64,000 nucleotides of DNA. It comes from Glaciimonas sp. CA11.2 (GTDB lineage Bacteria > Pseudomonadota > Gammaproteobacteria > Burkholderiales > Burkholderiaceae_D). Under the pieces are notes generated by a model. The model did not search any database. It worked only from the letters and a program-made list of their open reading frames with translations, and was not told where the DNA came from. Shown one piece after another: positions 27,687 through 63,107 of this stretch (position 1 is its first letter; the number at the start of each line of letters is the position of its first letter). The translations under genes and the position numbers were made by a program. The stretch spans positions 4,216,001 through 4,280,000 of the forward strand of contig NZ_JAVIWL010000001.1 in NCBI RefSeq assembly GCF_034314045.1, read 5' to 3'.

Positions 27687-29471
27687 CTAAATACAACCTC
27701 GCTGTTTGGTAATCAATATTTCTAACTGGTCCCAAGGCAAAGGCTCACATATAAAATATCCCTGCAATATATCACAACCATGTGCGCGTAGAAAATTGGC
27801 TTGTTCTTGTGTTTCGACGCCCTCTGCCACGACTTGTAATTTTAGATTATGCGCTAGCGAGATGATGGATCGAACAATGGCCGCATCGTCCGCATTAATG
27901 GAGATGTCCTGCACAAAGATTCGATCAATTTTGAGGACATCTATAGGAAATTGTTTTAAATATGAGAGGCTCGAATATCCAGTACCGAAATCATCAATCG
28001 ACAACGTAATCCCGAGGTCTTTAAGTGCATGCATTTTTTTAATTCCAAGCTCGACATCGCTCATAATCAAGCGTTCTGTCAGCTCCAATTCTAAATATTG
28101 AGGAGCCAATCCAGTCTGCTTGAGTGTGCGGGCAATTGAGTCGACAAAGTCTATTTGAGAAAATTGTCGTGCAGAGACGTTTACAGCTATCCGTATCTGA
28201 TGGAAACCTAGCTTGGACAATGCTCTCGTTTGTGTACAAGCAGTGCGTAATACCCAATCTCCAACCGTAATAATTAAGCCACTTTCCTCTGCAATTCCTA
28301 TAAACCGGTCGGGTACTATATTGCCAAGCTTTGAATGATGCCATCGAATTAATGCTTCCATGCCGACGATTTGCTTTGTTTCAGCATTTACTTGAAGCTG
28401 GTAATGCAAAACGAATTCATCTTTTACCAAGGCTGTGCGTAAAGCTTTCTCGATAACTACCCGTTCAAGCGCTTTTACCTCCATTGCTTTTGTAAAAAAT
28501 TGAAAATTTGCCTGATCCAATCTTTTCGCGTTATACATGGCGATATCGGCACTTTTTAAAAGTAGTTCAGCAGATCCCCCATCAAATGGATATATTGCTA
28601 CGCCAGCACTGCACGTAATAGTTAAAGTCTTATCTTCGATTATCATGTGTCGCGCGATCGAGTCTATGATGCCTTGGATCACACGCGCTAACGGTGTACC
28701 ATCTGCCCTCTCGTGTATTACCAGTATGAATTCGTCCCCGCTAGGACGACATACGATATCGGTAGACAAGACCTCTTTTAAAATTCGTTTTGCCACTTCG
28801 TTTAACAACAGGTCACCGACATGATGACCATAACTGTCGTTAACAGATTTAAATCGATCAAGATCTAAAAATATCACCCCAATTGATTGCTTGTTGCTAG
28901 CGGCATATGTGATGGCGTCATTTAAACCATGGCGCATAGTTTTCCGATTGACAAGGCCAGTCAATTCATCTCGCGTAGCTTGATGGTGTAACTGCTTTCG
29001 GAGCTCTTTTTGAACTGAAATATCTTGTAAATTTATCTGTACTGCGGGCTGGCCAAAATAAGTGTACCTAATGCAACTGACACTCACGTCAAGCAAACGA
29101 CCGTCCAGTAGGCAGGCCTGGTCTTCATGGCCAGCAGCCGATTTATTGTACGTATCGTAACCAGATGCAAACAAAGAAACCAAAGAACGGCCCAAAAGAT
29201 CGCCCGGACTTGATGCGCAAAAAAGCGTCTGTGCCGCCGGATTTACAAAAACGATTCGCTTTTTAACTTCAATTAAAATTGAAAATGGCGATAGCTCAAC
29301 TAGCAATCTATAACGTTCTTCACTTTCTATTAAGGCCGCGACTATTACCTCTCGTTTGAGGGCCTCATTGTAAAGTTGAAGGCTTTTTTCTTCCAATAGC
29401 AATTCAGCTTGTTGCCGTGCACTATCCGCCCGGGCTAACCGCCGTTCGTTCAACTCGTTAGGCGTTGTCAT
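27687..29471 (-). CDS. PAS-GGDEF-EAL protein, probable c-di-GMP phosphodiesterase paired with H-NOX
   Basis: 594 residues, cytoplasmic: an N-terminal coiled coil (1-50), a PAS domain (about 50-165), GGDEF (about 170-330) and EAL (about 345-590). The GGDEF site reads RPSGDEF, a SGDEF variant, so cyclase activity is uncertain. The EAL domain keeps MEALIRW, NVSARQF, LELTERL, DDFGTGYSSLSYL, KIDRIF and EGVETQEQ, so it should hydrolyse c-di-GMP. The ATG lies inside the end of the H-NOX gene (14-base overlap). H-NOX proteins are known to control adjacent c-di-GMP enzymes in response to NO, the likely role here. The stop codon abuts an IS6 fragment. Confidence 0.93.
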   Translation of the reverse strand: MTTPNELNERRLARADSARQQAELLLEEKSLQLYNEALKREVIVAALIESEERYRLLVELSPFSILIEVKKRIVFVNPAAQTLFCASSPGDLLGRSLVSLFASGYDTYNKSAAGHEDQACLLDGRLLDVSVSCIRYTYFGQPAVQINLQDISVQKELRKQLHHQATRDELTGLVNRKTMRHGLNDAITYAASNKQSIGVIFLDLDRFKSVNDSYGHHVGDLLLNEVAKRILKEVLSTDIVCRPSGDEFILVIHERADGTPLARVIQGIIDSIARHMIIEDKTLTITCSAGVAIYPFDGGSAELLLKSADIAMYNAKRLDQANFQFFTKAMEVKALERVVIEKALRTALVKDEFVLHYQLQVNAETKQIVGMEALIRWHHSKLGNIVPDRFIGIAEESGLIITVGDWVLRTACTQTRALSKLGFHQIRIAVNVSARQFSQIDFVDSIARTLKQTGLAPQYLELELTERLIMSDVELGIKKMHALKDLGITLSIDDFGTGYSSLSYLKQFPIDVLKIDRIFVQDISINADDAAIVRSIISLAHNLKLQVVAEGVETQEQANFLRAHGCDILQGYFICEPLPWDQLEILITKQRGCI

Positions 29472-35572: not shown

Positions 35573-37189
35573 TTAGCCGCTTTTGCTTGTCCATTTTGCG
35601 GCTACGCATACCTGTCGCTTGCCCAGCCCCTTAGCGTTATACATTGCATGATCCGCATTTTTTAAAAGAGTGTCAGTATCCGTTGCAGAGGTAGGATATT
35701 CGGCGACTCCAATGCTTGCAGAAATCATCACCTTATTTGTGCCGAACAGATAAGGTTCCGAGATGATTTCGATCAACTTATGGGCGAATTTGGTGGCATT
35801 TTCTAAATTAGAATTAATCAACGCGATGGCAAACTCATCGCCACCGAGTCGCGCTGCAATATCTGATGCACGAATGGCGTTTTTGATTCTCATTGAAACG
35901 GTACGTAAAAGCTCATCTCCCCGTGCGTGACCATAACTATCGTTGACTTGTTTGAAGCCGTCCAAGTCAATATACAACACAGCCAGTGCAGTCTTGTCTC
36001 GTTGGCAAAGTGATAATTGTTGGTTGAGGACAGTATGGAAAAACTCTCGATTCGGTAAGCCCGTAAGCCCGTCATGATAGGCGTCGTATTGTGCTTGACG
36101 CAGGGTTACAGACGCATTCAGCAATGCCTGACGTAATTTGTTTGCCTCTGTAAAATATAGATGCGGAACGGTGAATGGCTTATTGGAACCTAGTGCCGTT
36201 GCTGGTGAAATAAGTGCTATTATAGAATCAGCAACACGTCCTCCGATAAACCAAGCTAGCGCTAGTCCCAAGATTAAAGCACAAAAGGTTGCGATAATCA
36301 GTAAGATCAGTGTGTGACGAAGCCCTTCGGTGATCTGAGCTAATGGCATAGCGAGGGCGACTGTCCACTTTGTCGCCGCTGATCGACTGTACACCGTGAA
36401 CGCAGGAATATTATCCAAAGTTTGTGTCACGAAGCCGCCTTCATTCGAACTGTTTATTTGTTGCCACAAGGCCGGCGTCACTTTCTTGCCAACAAATTTC
36501 TGCATATTGGTTGTTCGGCCTACGATGCAGCCGTTGCTGTCGATAATGGCACCGATCCAACCGCTGGGCAGTTTTTGCTCCGTCATTAAATTCAAAAGTT
36601 GGGCGGGAGCAATCGTTGCATTTAATGAGTATATGGTCGACTCATTGCTCTTCACCGGTACGGAAATGGTGAAAATAGAATGATCTGTCAGCGCTGCTTT
36701 AAATAACCCAGAAACTCCCGGTTTTCCGGTTTCAAATGTGTGTTTAAGTAGTGGCGGATTAGTTAGTTTCGGAAGTATTGTGCCAAAGGGGCGATTTGTA
36801 GCCAGAAGCATCTGCCCGTCGGGTGCTAAGACTAGTATGTTTTCAACCGGCAAGTTCGGCAACTCCTCCCGAGCTCGGGTATGGAAGCCTTTTAAATCAC
36901 CGTTGGCTAGCCGATGAGAGGTGCCGAGTGCTTGAAGTGCGGCCTGGGTACTGGTGAAATCCCTATCTATTGCCGCCATCGTCGCGCGCGCGCGACTGAT
37001 CGCGGTAAGGGTTAATTGCTCTCGTTCGTGGGTGTAAAAATTAACGATCAAAAAAGTCGCTATAGCCGCGATTGGCAGCACGCACCCAAGTACAAGCACA
37101 ACGAGACAGGCGCGAATGCTAGGCACATGCACGCCTTTCAAAAGGATACGGTCCATCATCCTGGTATCAGTAGTCGTGGCGACCTTCAT
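35573..37189 (-). CDS. Membrane diguanylate cyclase with periplasmic dCache sensor
   Basis: 538 residues: cytoplasmic start, membrane helix (about 27-50), periplasmic dCache-type sensor (about 52-290), second helix (about 296-318), linker and GGDEF domain (about 370-530). The active site is RLGGDEFAIAL and the inhibitory site RASD lies five residues before it, so product inhibition by c-di-GMP is expected. AGAGGA six bases before the ATG supports the start. It stands alone between an IS66 remnant and the intact IS6 element. The ligand is unknown. Confidence 0.92.
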   Translation of the reverse strand: MKVATTTDTRMMDRILLKGVHVPSIRACLVVLVLGCVLPIAAIATFLIVNFYTHEREQLTLTAISRARATMAAIDRDFTSTQAALQALGTSHRLANGDLKGFHTRAREELPNLPVENILVLAPDGQMLLATNRPFGTILPKLTNPPLLKHTFETGKPGVSGLFKAALTDHSIFTISVPVKSNESTIYSLNATIAPAQLLNLMTEQKLPSGWIGAIIDSNGCIVGRTTNMQKFVGKKVTPALWQQINSSNEGGFVTQTLDNIPAFTVYSRSAATKWTVALAMPLAQITEGLRHTLILLIIATFCALILGLALAWFIGGRVADSIIALISPATALGSNKPFTVPHLYFTEANKLRQALLNASVTLRQAQYDAYHDGLTGLPNREFFHTVLNQQLSLCQRDKTALAVLYIDLDGFKQVNDSYGHARGDELLRTVSMRIKNAIRASDIAARLGGDEFAIALINSNLENATKFAHKLIEIISEPYLFGTNKVMISASIGVAEYPTSATDTDTLLKNADHAMYNAKGLGKRQVCVAAKWTSKSG

Positions 37190-38576: not shown

Positions 38577-41081
38577 TTAATAGTCATTATCTTCCGTTCC
38601 GGATTGAGAAATTTTCTTAAAATACCGTGAAAAACTGTTACTTGGCCCGTTCACGGTACCCTTATACAGGTCGGACCATTCATCAATTGCAACTGGCTTG
38701 CCGAATAGATAACCCTGAAAATTTGTGCATCCGTTTTCTAGCAGGAAATACAGTTGCTCCTCTGTTTCGACGCCTTCTGCAATCACCTGAATGCCAAGCG
38801 ATTTATTCATGGCAATTATGGCGCACACAATAGCGGCATCGCTAGGGTCGCTGGTTATATCGCGGACGAACGATTGATCGATCTTCACTTCGTTCAGCGG
38901 TAATCGCTTCAGATATGACAGCGAGGAAAAGCCGGTGCCGAAGTCATCCAGAGAAAAGGTGACGCCAAGCGCTCTGATCTGGCGCATCCGGTTAATGACG
39001 TCGTTAATTTTTTCCAGCACAATGCTTTCTGTTAACTCCAGTCTCAGCAGTGTTGGGTTAGCGCCAGAACATTTCAGCGTATCAAAAACCTGTTCTACGA
39101 AATTCGGTTGGTGAAACTGGCGTGCACTGACGTTAATCGAAATATGTAAATTGCTCGTGCTCGGATTTTCCGACCAAGTTTTGAGTTGTGTACAGGCGGT
39201 CTGCATGACCCACAGTCCCAAGGGGAGGATAAGGCCCGTGTCTTCGGCTAGTTGAATAAAATGAACGGGTGAGACAATTTTTTTCTCTGGCGTGAACCAG
39301 CGCAACAGAGCTTCGGCTCCGATTAAACATCCTTGCTGATCAACTTGGGGTTGATAGAACAGCTGAAATTCGCCATTTTGCAATCCATTACTTAGCGCGT
39401 TCTCCATCTTTAAACGCGACTCAAGAGCAGCTTGCATGGCTGGATTGAAAAACGTAATGGTGTTCCGCCCTGCAACTTTAGCTTCATACAACGCGGTATC
39501 GGCGTGCTTGAGCAAGACATCAATGGTATCCGCATTGTCCCTGAAAAGTACGGCACCGATGCTGGTGGTCAGGTTGCGCGTGTACTCAACGTGATTTAAC
39601 GTGTAAGGTTGGTTGAGCGCAATTTTAATTTTATCGGCTATCGTCTCAACAAGGCTGACGGCTAAAGTTTTATCCGTTTCCAGTCCCTCAATTATCACCA
39701 TGTATTCATCGCCGCCAAAACGGGAGACGGTATCTTCCAATCGTAATGAGGAGACGATTCGACGCCCCACTTCAACCAGTAGTTGATCTCCAACATCGTG
39801 GCCACGCGTGTCGTTGACACTCTTGAAATCGTCGAGATCAAGCATCAGTAGCACACCATATTTCATAGAGCCGTTGCTGGTGATTAATGCCTGATCAAGG
39901 CGGTCCATCGCTAGTCGGCGATTAGGCAGTTTTGTGAGCACGTCAAAATAGGCCAAATTCCAGATTTTCTCCTCCGCGTCCTTCCGCTCAGTGATTTCCT
40001 GTTTCAAGTTATGGGCGGATTCAGCCAAGTTCGCTATATGCTCCAAATGTTTCCTGGCGCGCATCTTCAATGTTTGCACGTAGCTCGCGACAAAAATGGT
40101 AAATATGAGGCCACACGCCAGTGCCCACCACGCCTGTCTGACCTTATGAACAGTTTCGAAGGCGCTGGTCGATTCCACGTGGACGAGCCAGTTCTGGCCC
40201 GGCACACTCAACGACTGGACGTAGTGAAACCCCTCATGGAGAACTTGTTCAGCGTTGCCTCCTTCTGTCCTATGTGGGCGGCTATAGAGTATGCCTTCGG
40301 TCGACTTGACGGAGGAATCGCGTACCGTGATGGCCATTTCTGCAGTCGGAATATTGCGGAGGGCATAATCTATCATGTTGTCGATACGAAACACGCCCAA
40401 AACATAGCCCCGCAATGCCGTCCTTCTCGTTGCCGGGGACGTCGGAACTTCTCCGATGCCATAGACCGGATAAATCATCAGAAAACCACGCTGGAAACCA
40501 TCTCCCTGTATTAAGACAACGGGCACCGTGGCCTTCATCTCGCCTGAGTCTCTGGAGGACTCGAGAGCAGCCAAACGACTGGGATTCGAGGCTAAATCAT
40601 AGCCGAAGGCCGCTTCATTCCCTTGTAGAGGTTCGACAAAATACACTGGGAAATACTCCGCTCGGTTCGCAGCAGACACTATTCGCCCACTGGCCTGCTT
40701 TTCAGTGAAGCGAAAATTTGGAAATATCTGTGTGGCACTATGTTCATAGGCGTCGCGTTGGCTGCTGGAAACACGAGGAATCCACTCCAAAGCTTGGATG
40801 TCTCCATGGTTTGACAGTAATTCAGTGACGAAGTGGTGAAATTCGTTGCGGCTGATCGGATCGATGCTGGTATAAAGCGCCGCAAAGGATTCCAGAATCT
40901 GGACGTTGCGGTCGATCCCCTGTTGAAGAATGCTGGCCAGAGAGCTGGCTTGTTGTGTGAACTCGCTCTCAAGCAATTTCTGTTCGGTTTTCCTCACTTC
41001 ATAAAATACATAAAGCGTAAAGACTATTCCTATGATGAGAATCAATAAGGGTAACTTCAGCCATTTAGTTGTTCGATTCAA
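38577..41081 (-). CDS. CHASE-GGDEF-EAL membrane protein
   Basis: 834 residues: N-terminal helix (about 12-30), periplasmic CHASE domain (about 70-290; includes LEWIPRVSSSQRDAYE and AEYFPVYFVEPLQGNE), second helix (about 315-335), a short coiled coil, GGDEF (about 375-540) and EAL (about 555-800). The GGDEF site RFGGDEYMVI and the inhibitory motif RLED five residues before it are present. The EAL part keeps GAEALLRWF, NVSARQF, LELTES, DDFGTGFSSLSYL and EGVETEEQ. It could therefore make or break c-di-GMP depending on the periplasmic signal. Confidence 0.92.
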   Translation of the reverse strand: MNRTTKWLKLPLLILIIGIVFTLYVFYEVRKTEQKLLESEFTQQASSLASILQQGIDRNVQILESFAALYTSIDPISRNEFHHFVTELLSNHGDIQALEWIPRVSSSQRDAYEHSATQIFPNFRFTEKQASGRIVSAANRAEYFPVYFVEPLQGNEAAFGYDLASNPSRLAALESSRDSGEMKATVPVVLIQGDGFQRGFLMIYPVYGIGEVPTSPATRRTALRGYVLGVFRIDNMIDYALRNIPTAEMAITVRDSSVKSTEGILYSRPHRTEGGNAEQVLHEGFHYVQSLSVPGQNWLVHVESTSAFETVHKVRQAWWALACGLIFTIFVASYVQTLKMRARKHLEHIANLAESAHNLKQEITERKDAEEKIWNLAYFDVLTKLPNRRLAMDRLDQALITSNGSMKYGVLLMLDLDDFKSVNDTRGHDVGDQLLVEVGRRIVSSLRLEDTVSRFGGDEYMVIIEGLETDKTLAVSLVETIADKIKIALNQPYTLNHVEYTRNLTTSIGAVLFRDNADTIDVLLKHADTALYEAKVAGRNTITFFNPAMQAALESRLKMENALSNGLQNGEFQLFYQPQVDQQGCLIGAEALLRWFTPEKKIVSPVHFIQLAEDTGLILPLGLWVMQTACTQLKTWSENPSTSNLHISINVSARQFHQPNFVEQVFDTLKCSGANPTLLRLELTESIVLEKINDVINRMRQIRALGVTFSLDDFGTGFSSLSYLKRLPLNEVKIDQSFVRDITSDPSDAAIVCAIIAMNKSLGIQVIAEGVETEEQLYFLLENGCTNFQGYLFGKPVAIDEWSDLYKGTVNGPSNSFSRYFKKISQSGTEDNDY

Positions 41082-61389: not shown

Positions 61390-62718
61390 TTATGTCTGCC
61401 TCCAAATTTTTACGTTGTTACGTCCCGAATGTTTGGCATCATAGAGTGCTGTATCGGCACGCTGAAGCAATTCGTCAAAGCCGGTGACTGTGTGGTCCAT
61501 AGCGCTGATCCCGATGCTAATAGTGTATTTAATTTCTGCACCATCGATGATGACCCGTGCAGCTTCGATCTTGTTGCGTAAGCGTTCTGCCAGTTGCAAT
61601 GCCCCGCCAAGATCTGTTGATGGGAGAAGCGCTGCGAATTCTTCGCCACCGATCCGTGCTACCGTATCGATGTCTCGCATCGTTTCCTTCATCGTGCTTG
61701 CCAGATTACACAATATAAGATCACCAGCTGCATGTCCGTACGTATCATTGACTTTCTTGAAATAGTCAGCATCGATGATGATAAGAGTGAGGGGCCGAGG
61801 ATTTCGATGCCAACGTTTGAACTCTAGCTCTGCTGCCTCGAAAAGCGTACGTCGATTTGCTATGCCAGTTAAATAGTCGCTCGACAGGGCACTTAAGTGT
61901 CCAGCCGCATCGTTATTCCGGTCAGTTATATCGCGCAAAATTAAAGCATAACTGAGTTCATCAGGATCCGCTAAAACCATATTTCCTGCACCATCTACTG
62001 CAGTATCTTCAATCGGCACAATCATACTGCTGCTCCAGAAGCTTGTCCCGTCAGCCTTGACACGCCAGCCTTCGTTCAGACTCCAGCCGTCTTCATCGGC
62101 TTCTTTTAAGTAGTCTGTAATCCGTTCGGGCGAGATGCTACCTTCCTTGTAGAACATAGAGAAGGATTTTCCCACCACGTCTTCGGCAGTAAATTTAGTG
62201 ACGCGTCCAATACTTGGATTCCATTCGTGGATTTTCCCTTCCTGATCAAGGCTCATTAATGCATAGTCTGTGACGCCCACCGTTATCGCGTTAATCCAAG
62301 CCGTGTTGTACTTGAGTTGGCGCTCTTGGGCTATGATCTGCGTCATATCGGTTAGGACTGTCATCAGATGGCTTTCATCCAATTTGATCATGCTTATCCC
62401 GAGCATCTTGGGATCTTGTTTTCCGCGAACGCCTGCAGTCAATTGGGCTCTGAAACCCTCACAAATAGATCCTTGTGGTGCTGTAAAATCTGCTGCCATG
62501 CGCCGCAATTCTGGGGCAACCGACTCTAAAGCGTTAAATAAATTTGACAGCCCGCCATCTTTCGATAAGGGCATTAATAGCTGGGCTGAGAGTGGATTCA
62601 TCAGCTCAACCTCGCCCAAGCGGTTAGTTTGCACAAGGCCAACCGGTGCGAGGTAAAGAAACTGCAGTAATGCCTCGTACTCGCTGGCAATGTCTTGCGT
62701 ACTCCCGTCTTCGCTCAT
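61390..62718 (-). CDS. PAS-PAS-GGDEF diguanylate cyclase, partner of the PYP-like gene
   Basis: 442 residues, cytoplasmic: PAS-like domain 1 (about 18-130, LAPVGLVQTNRLGEVELMNP), PAS 2 (about 145-275, LMSLDQEGKIHEWNPSIGRV and KADGTSFWSSSMIVPIED), GGDEF (about 280-440). The active site is RIGGEEFAALLP, and the inhibitory motif RDID lies five residues before it, so it is a feedback-inhibited active cyclase. The ATG overlaps the stop of the PYP-like gene (ATGA), indicating translational coupling. It is probably controlled by that partner. Confidence 0.93.
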   Translation of the reverse strand: MSEDGSTQDIASEYEALLQFLYLAPVGLVQTNRLGEVELMNPLSAQLLMPLSKDGGLSNLFNALESVAPELRRMAADFTAPQGSICEGFRAQLTAGVRGKQDPKMLGISMIKLDESHLMTVLTDMTQIIAQERQLKYNTAWINAITVGVTDYALMSLDQEGKIHEWNPSIGRVTKFTAEDVVGKSFSMFYKEGSISPERITDYLKEADEDGWSLNEGWRVKADGTSFWSSSMIVPIEDTAVDGAGNMVLADPDELSYALILRDITDRNNDAAGHLSALSSDYLTGIANRRTLFEAAELEFKRWHRNPRPLTLIIIDADYFKKVNDTYGHAAGDLILCNLASTMKETMRDIDTVARIGGEEFAALLPSTDLGGALQLAERLRNKIEAARVIIDGAEIKYTISIGISAMDHTVTGFDELLQRADTALYDAKHSGRNNVKIWRQT

Positions 62719-63107
62719 GTTGCGCGTAAAACTAAAATGAATCGGATCAGCACGTCAGGACGCGATAAAAGTCTTAGTTTTACCTTAATAGGGCGCATGC
62801 GTAATGTGAGTACGTAATCAATGATGGTATCTAAAGAGGTGGAGGATTCGCGTGCATCTTCGAAGCGCTGGGCAACCATGAAGTTATTCATGCACGGAGC
62901 AACATTCGTAAATAAATGTGACCCGATCACGTTTTGAGCCCGCAATCCAGCCAATTTCGATTCAAATAGGTTGTAGCGTTGCACCAGGCCTGCGTCGTCA
63001 AATCCAATCACCCCAAAATCCATCTCATCGAGCTCTGTTGTCGACGCGTTAGCAATTATTGACATCAATCCTTCTTGATCGAAGAGCTCTTTGTTTATTT
63101 CAAGCAT
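62715..63107 (-). CDS. Photoactive-yellow-protein-like PAS protein
   Basis: A 130-residue single PAS domain with colinear similarity to PYP of Halorhodospira. The PYP chromophore cysteine (Cys69, in VAPC) is conserved as Cys72 in HLFTNVAPCMNNF; Tyr42 and Glu46, which hydrogen-bond the p-coumaric acid, are conserved as Tyr45 and Glu49 in VQRYNLFES. Thr50 and Arg52 of PYP are replaced by Ala and Leu. The C-terminal strand MRPIKVKLRLL matches MTPTKVKVHM. A strong GGGAGA site precedes the ATG. It is coupled to a diguanylate cyclase. Whether it binds a chromophore is unknown. Confidence 0.8.
   Translation of the reverse strand: MLEINKELFDQEGLMSIIANASTTELDEMDFGVIGFDDAGLVQRYNLFESKLAGLRAQNVIGSHLFTNVAPCMNNFMVAQRFEDARESSTSLDTIIDYVLTLRMRPIKVKLRLLSRPDVLIRFILVLRAT

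Follow-up and report, generated by a model that had tools for sequence, protein, structure and literature searches.

A small open reading frame in the window (the whole 64,000-nucleotide stretch of Glaciimonas sp. CA11.2 DNA analysed here, taken from a 5.5-Mb assembly in two contigs) raises the question of whether a single-domain light sensor is paired with a diguanylate cyclase in this bacterium and, if so, through which part of the cyclase it would act. The small gene, pyp (window 62715..63107, minus strand), encodes 130 residues; the cyclase gene (61390..62718, minus strand; recognised by its reading frame, Pfam matches and a structural model) encodes 442. Re-reading of the open reading frames confirmed both positions and the 4-base overlap given by an earlier, sequence-only reading: the ATGA at 62715..62718 (minus strand) holds the stop of pyp and the start of the cyclase gene, an arrangement that suggests translational coupling. 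The GGDEF gene adjoins pyp on the same strand with its active motif intact, and the two form a pyp-GGDEF operon.

Tree, residues and fold place the 130-residue protein in clade C of the photoactive yellow proteins (PYPs), and it has profile and PDB matches to the family. The NCBIfam model TIGR02373 matches it at 81 bits (E = 7.3e-23), below the equivalog cut-off of 143 bits; this model recovers about 20% of PYP homologs (PMC9664959), and the 11 matches above its cut-off in our family sample are not the clade C places, all of which score lower. The best sequence match in the PDB is the PYP domain of Ppr (1mzu, E = 6.2e-17). Alignment to Halorhodospira halophila PYP, whose numbering is used unless stated, bears out the retention of Tyr42, Glu46, Cys69, Met100 and Pro102 (locally Y45, E49, C72, M104 and P106); the gap-free alignment that the sequence-only reading described for residues 30-110 holds through the chromophore loop, after which, still within that range, there is one single-residue gap. 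Tyr45 and Glu49 (62961..62975, minus strand) are, by alignment, the hydrogen-bond residues of the chromophore and Cys72 (62892..62894, minus strand) the predicted p-coumaroyl thioester site. Thr50 and Arg52 are altered (to Ala and Leu), the change itself being as that reading claimed; Ala50/Leu52 is the consensus over 984 PYPs (PMC12826048). Met100 is kept while Phe92, Phe96 and Trp119 are replaced by I, L and F, the pattern of retention and loss given as the clade C signature (PMC9664959).

Structure prediction and phylogeny, both recommended in the sequence-only reading, agree with this assignment. The AlphaFold2 model of the protein (mean pLDDT 90.2) superposes on PYPs: ranks 1-40 of a Foldseek search are all PYPs or PYP-derived proteins, most with TM-scores of 0.82-0.85 by query, and the best non-PYP PAS domains score about 0.6 (query) and 0.67 (target). 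In a tree of 66 rows, 50 clade C rows, including the window protein, split from 16 clade A-type rows (H. halophila PYP, Ppr and relatives) with support 100/99; the 50 rows contain two duplicates, namely G170 and the window protein (entered as G000). The cysteine, whose loss in close homologues had been named as telling against the assignment, is present in all clade C proteins examined. That an ordinary PAS domain resembles PYP by chance could draw on the weak PAS match that is all Pfam returns and on the TIGR02373 score below cut-off, but it is scarcely credible and was rejected, the top PDB sequence match and the Foldseek ranking being PYPs, the pocket residues being retained and ligase genes being associated with the family (see below). 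Two stretches beside the chromophore, CMNNFMVAQRFxDA (69-82) and YVLTLRMRP (94-102), are near-invariant in clade C and specific to it, and are candidates for partner-contact surfaces.

A stand-alone PYP beside a cyclase is ordinary in such a bacterium, and the pairing is already known. Clade C occurs mostly in Proteobacteria, especially Burkholderiales, is often found beside GGDEF genes and is described as photochemically uncharacterised (Xing, Gumerov and Zhulin, 2022; PMC9664959); we found no study of clade C photochemistry in the open-licence literature. Single-domain proteins make up 83% of 984 PYPs with Cys69, and 113 predicted pyp operons include GGDEF in 29 cases, pCL in 42 and TAL in 7 (PMC12826048). 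Given these counts the pairing is not unusual, and the rarity that the sequence-only reading ascribed to a stand-alone PYP here does not stand; the pairing of a PYP-family sensor with a c-di-GMP cyclase, the core of its proposal, has good support. PYP homologs are frequently misnamed, for example as 'phosphonate transporter' (PMC9664959), which is the annotation of a Glaciimonas relative (P0007) among the best 120 of 3946 homologs. Signal transmission by single-domain PYPs is called unknown in PMC9664959 and a knowledge gap in PMC12826048, and the partner interface of stand-alone PYPs is described as unknown in both.

The cyclase consists of two PAS domains followed by a GGDEF domain (PAS-A, PAS-B and GGDEF). 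The catalytic domain (residues 280-435; 61414..61881, minus strand; PF00990, E = 1.3e-44) contains an RxxD I-site and a GGEEF motif (RDIDTVARIGGEEF, residues 348-361; 61636..61677, minus strand), in agreement with the earlier description of an intact cyclase with a feedback site. PAS-B (residues about 150-265; 61924..62271, minus strand) is recognised by Pfam (PAS_9/PAS) and in the AlphaFold2 model of the cyclase (mean pLDDT 84.8). The Pfam scan gave nothing significant before residue 154; in the model, strands and helices follow one another as in PAS domains over residues 27-124, and this region, named PAS-A and taken as residues 11-134 (62317..62688, minus strand), is the proposed PYP docking domain. 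No convincing sequence relative of PAS-A was found in the PDB (best E = 0.69), and a derivation of PAS-A from PYP was unsupported (0.3% probability in profile comparison). Three more GGDEF domains lie on the minus strand of the window (28521-28979, 35615-36082 and 39462-39953).

Thirty-six cyclases went into the profile for PAS-A, and 34 of these came from a set of 80 pyp loci (80 of 89). Within this set, 34 members of which had thus contributed to the profile, 79 of 80 loci have PAS-A on the same strand as pyp and at most 450 bases downstream of it; the exception is L073, with PAS-A 2.2 kb from pyp. Two PAS-A domains occur within 3.5 kb in 49 of the 80. A family sample of 195 genomes, searched with the whole window protein as query, comprises 40 PYP-positive and 155 PYP-negative genomes (one search gave 41 positives, of which G117, at 37 bits, was set aside as generic PAS). 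PAS-A is present in 41 of these genomes, namely in all 40 with PYP and in one of the 155 without (G093), and PYP presence and absence are both seen within at least eight genera (g1, g5, g12, g13, g18, g23, g57 and g64). Phylum-wide it was found in two of 397 genomes, the window's own and G021, both PYP-positive; at most 22 first-look candidates per genome were scored in the family sample and at most 11 in the phylum sample. PAS-A begins 27-88 bases after the pyp match in 43 of 44 clade C places, the 44th being at a contig end, and pyp is found at most 3.5 kb upstream of 72 of 79 PAS-A places. The remaining seven are a remnant operon in the window's own genome (operon B, below), four genomes of one genus (G114, G018, G079 and G098), G095 (the second PAS-A of a 480-contig assembly) and G093. 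No pyp was detected in the 9-11 kb around these PAS-A places of G093 and the four congeneric genomes, whose pyp-distant PAS-A proteins carry a GGDEF-like and an EAL domain. The PAS-A protein of G093 (L231; G093:C4:316369-316731, minus strand), with GGEEF and I-site present, is the sole PAS-A cyclase found in a sampled PYP-negative genome. The window's genome has 27 GGDEF matches, and the PAS-A/PAS-B module is confined to its two pyp operons. Genome by genome, PAS-A occurs near one-to-one with clade C PYP, a relation that is new here.

What follows PAS-A varies. The 80 loci contain 129 PAS-A frames, of which 61 lead into PAS-GGDEF and 58 into GGDEF-EAL; six are unclassified and four are 'PAS only', with some of these truncated or shifted. 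One PAS-GGDEF frame followed by one GGDEF-EAL frame, in that order, is found in 42 of the 80 loci. PAS-A belongs to a PAS-A/PAS-B module in 67 loci, 63 of these with GGDEF and no EAL in frame, and in two loci (L051 and L057) the module runs into GGDEF-EAL. Two Massilia loci (L054 and L055) have a PAS-A/PAS-B protein without catalytic domain directly after pyp, followed by a GGDEF-EAL gene. An Archangium metagenome-assembled genome (L063, 1255-2442) has a clade C-like PYP beside a PAS-A kinase with HisKA-HATPase output, in which no other Pfam sensor domain was found; a homology search from the PAS-A region of this kinase retrieved just that protein.

Operon B is a second pyp-cyclase operon of the window's genome (C1:3750266-3751755, minus strand; L115:4266-5755). 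Its cyclase is 76% identical to that of the window, with GGEEF and I-site present. Its pyp is a 56-codon remnant in which the beginning, the final strands and the ATGA overlap survive but 74 internal codons have dropped out in frame, among them those of Tyr42, Glu46 and Cys69. Cyclase B groups with the sole such cyclase found in G004 (support 100/99), whose operon is syntenic with the window locus; the flanking genes of operon B gave no match to the G004 locus. Between cyclase B and the G004 cyclase dN/dS is about 0.06 (dS 1.5, dS values being near or beyond saturation), and the 56 codons left of pyp show roughly three times the cyclase's dN (0.28 versus 0.09). Because of this dN/dS and the contrast in dN, cyclase B seems to be conserved and the pyp remnant to be under relaxed constraint. 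Just downstream of cyclase B is a GGDEF fragment with three stop codons (C1:3749853-3750032; L115 3853-4032, minus strand), perhaps the remnant of a third (GGDEF-EAL) gene.

From the genome linkage we propose PAS-A as the putative docking partner of PYP, which is new relative to the known pairing. The wider proposal, that PAS-A is a docking domain dedicated to clade C PYP and that one detachable light subunit would serve cyclase, GGDEF-EAL and histidine kinase outputs, is held tentatively, doubt slightly outweighing belief. PYP and cyclase might instead share an operon without contact, PYP signalling to another protein. A mirror-tree comparison of 35 operons does not favour PAS-A and shows no special PYP/PAS-A signal: PYP distances correlate with those of PAS-A at r = 0.70 and with those of PAS-B or GGDEF at 0.80 (partial correlation -0.08). 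Counter-evidence to docking also comes from G093, which retains a PAS-A cyclase with no PYP found, and from operon B, where the cyclase lacks a complete PYP and appears conserved although its PYP is broken. Co-occurrence could partly reflect joint operon transfer; transfer of whole operons also yields linkage, but not obviously a constant domain before changing outputs. It is this constancy of PAS-A beside pyp while outputs vary that speaks against an operon shared without contact, as do the pyp-distant PAS-A genes, which sit in PYP-positive genomes (G114, G018, G079 and G098, of one genus, and perhaps G095) as against one PYP-negative genome. We therefore regard the absence of contact as distinctly improbable and retain docking of PYP on PAS-A as the preferred reading.

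All 43 clade C proteins read from the family sample, the window protein included, retain Tyr42, Glu46 and Cys69 (44 places, of which a fragment at a contig end in G106 was excluded from the count); in the separate 80-locus set the invariance of these residues is partly built in, because the search patterns contained pocket motifs. The p-coumarate ligase model TIGR02372 scores at least 250 bits in 21 of 40 PYP-positive and 1 of 155 PYP-negative genomes (Fisher p = 3e-16, kinship ignored), a threshold picked after inspection of the scores (257, then 130). Ten genomes (G015, G021, G080, G099, G109, G140, G151, G160, G170 and G220) have such a ligase gene and a clade C pyp side by side on opposite strands. 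Four Methyloversatilis loci (L011, L019, L028 and L041) contain an unbroken series of lyase, ligase, clade C pyp and cyclase, and their flanks show no clade A PYP; in L023 a clade A PYP gene stands between lyase and ligase, and clade C pyp and cyclase come next. The ligase association and the Methyloversatilis gene order make it very probable that clade C, taken as a whole, uses p-coumaric acid. In G106 (C832:3357-3724) fragments of a disrupted pyp, with stop codons and probably of clade A, lie beside a ligase gene and a stop-bearing lyase frame.

The search of the window's own genome for chromophore genes, which the sequence-only reading had recommended, turned up neither a ligase of at least 250 bits nor a pyp-linked lyase. 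The best TIGR02372 match has 98 bits against a cut-off of 334.7, and no pCL or TAL was found beside the window pyp, that match and three lyases being far away. Among 22 of 26 AMP-binding matches scanned, in part with strict E-value limits, a single protein (L112:7822-10635) drew a coumarate-ligase name, with TIGR02372 at 96 bits, below cut-off; with this coverage and these limits the scan is not proof of absence. One of the three PF00221 lyases (C1:3587548-3589152) is 71-72% identical to lyases adjoining pyp in G016 and G007, the pyp of G007 being of clade A. The surrounding cluster is presumably aryl-polyene-like, to go by gene order, and no link between this type of lyase and PYP emerged (19 of 40 PYP-positive versus 57 of 155 PYP-negative genomes, p = 0.28). 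Two histidine-ammonia-lyase-like genes, apparently very similar to each other, are found at C1:3098542-3100011 and C1:4809105-4810574, one of them by an NRPS-type gene.

These results leave some room for the view that in this genus the PYP-fold protein dispenses with p-coumaric acid and senses another ligand or a redox state, or serves as a constitutive subunit of the cyclase. G000, G001 and G004 have no TIGR02372 match that reaches 250 bits, 9 of the 40 PYP-positive genomes have neither the ligase nor the searched lyase type, and clade C has no characterised member in the account of PMC9664959. We nevertheless think this unlikely: the PYPs of the 19 of 40 PYP-positive genomes that are ligase-negative retain Tyr42, Glu46 and Cys69 as well, and the window's genome has a lyase 71-72% identical to pyp-linked ones, though of a type not associated with PYP. 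The window PYP likely carries p-coumaric acid.

Taken together, we lean towards a system in which a p-coumarate-bearing clade C PYP, co-translated with the cyclase, binds PAS-A, and light alters cyclase output. The steps set out for the window protein rest on the PYP family and on linkage. Cys72 would carry p-coumaric acid covalently and blue light would be sensed. PYP and cyclase would be translated together through the ATGA overlap and therefore be expected in fixed proportion, and PYP would bind the N-terminal PAS-A of the cyclase. Light would partially unfold PYP and alter its contact with PAS-A; the helices of PAS-A and PAS-B that keep the GGDEF dimer in place would change in turn, altering GGDEF activity and c-di-GMP output. 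That light lowers the output is a guess, made because blue light reduces biofilm in Idiomarina loihiensis (PMC12826048). As PAS-A also heads the neighbouring GGDEF-EAL protein in about half of the loci, one PYP could there steer both synthesis and breakdown and push c-di-GMP both ways. If correct, stand-alone PYPs would gain a defined partner interface and a modular, two-chain light input; the match of PYP and PAS-A would name a concrete partner in operons that join light sensing, c-di-GMP synthesis and, often, a GGDEF-EAL protein.

The window system resembles clade C as described (PMC9664959) in its single domain, its occurrence in Burkholderiales, the retention of Tyr42, Glu46, Cys69 and Met100 with loss of Phe92, Phe96 and Trp119, the adjoining GGDEF gene and relatives misnamed 'phosphonate transporter'. 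In a comparison by text, the available portions of that account contain neither a shared putative partner domain in the neighbours nor a remnant pyp by an intact cyclase, both of which are seen here. In Idiomarina loihiensis, too, a stand-alone PYP is proposed to influence biofilm as well as an adjacent GGDEF protein (cited in PMC9664959 and PMC12826048); its PYP is of clade A, whereas that of the window is of clade C. The H. halophila operon (pyp, pCL, TAL; PMC12826048) shares the PYP fold and chromophore pocket but contains pCL and TAL, whereas the window pyp adjoins a cyclase and neither of these genes. In the Ppd and Ppr fusions (PMC9664959) PYP likewise provides input to GGDEF/EAL or kinase output, but there it is joined with phytochrome in one chain, whereas sensor and cyclase in the window are two separate chains.
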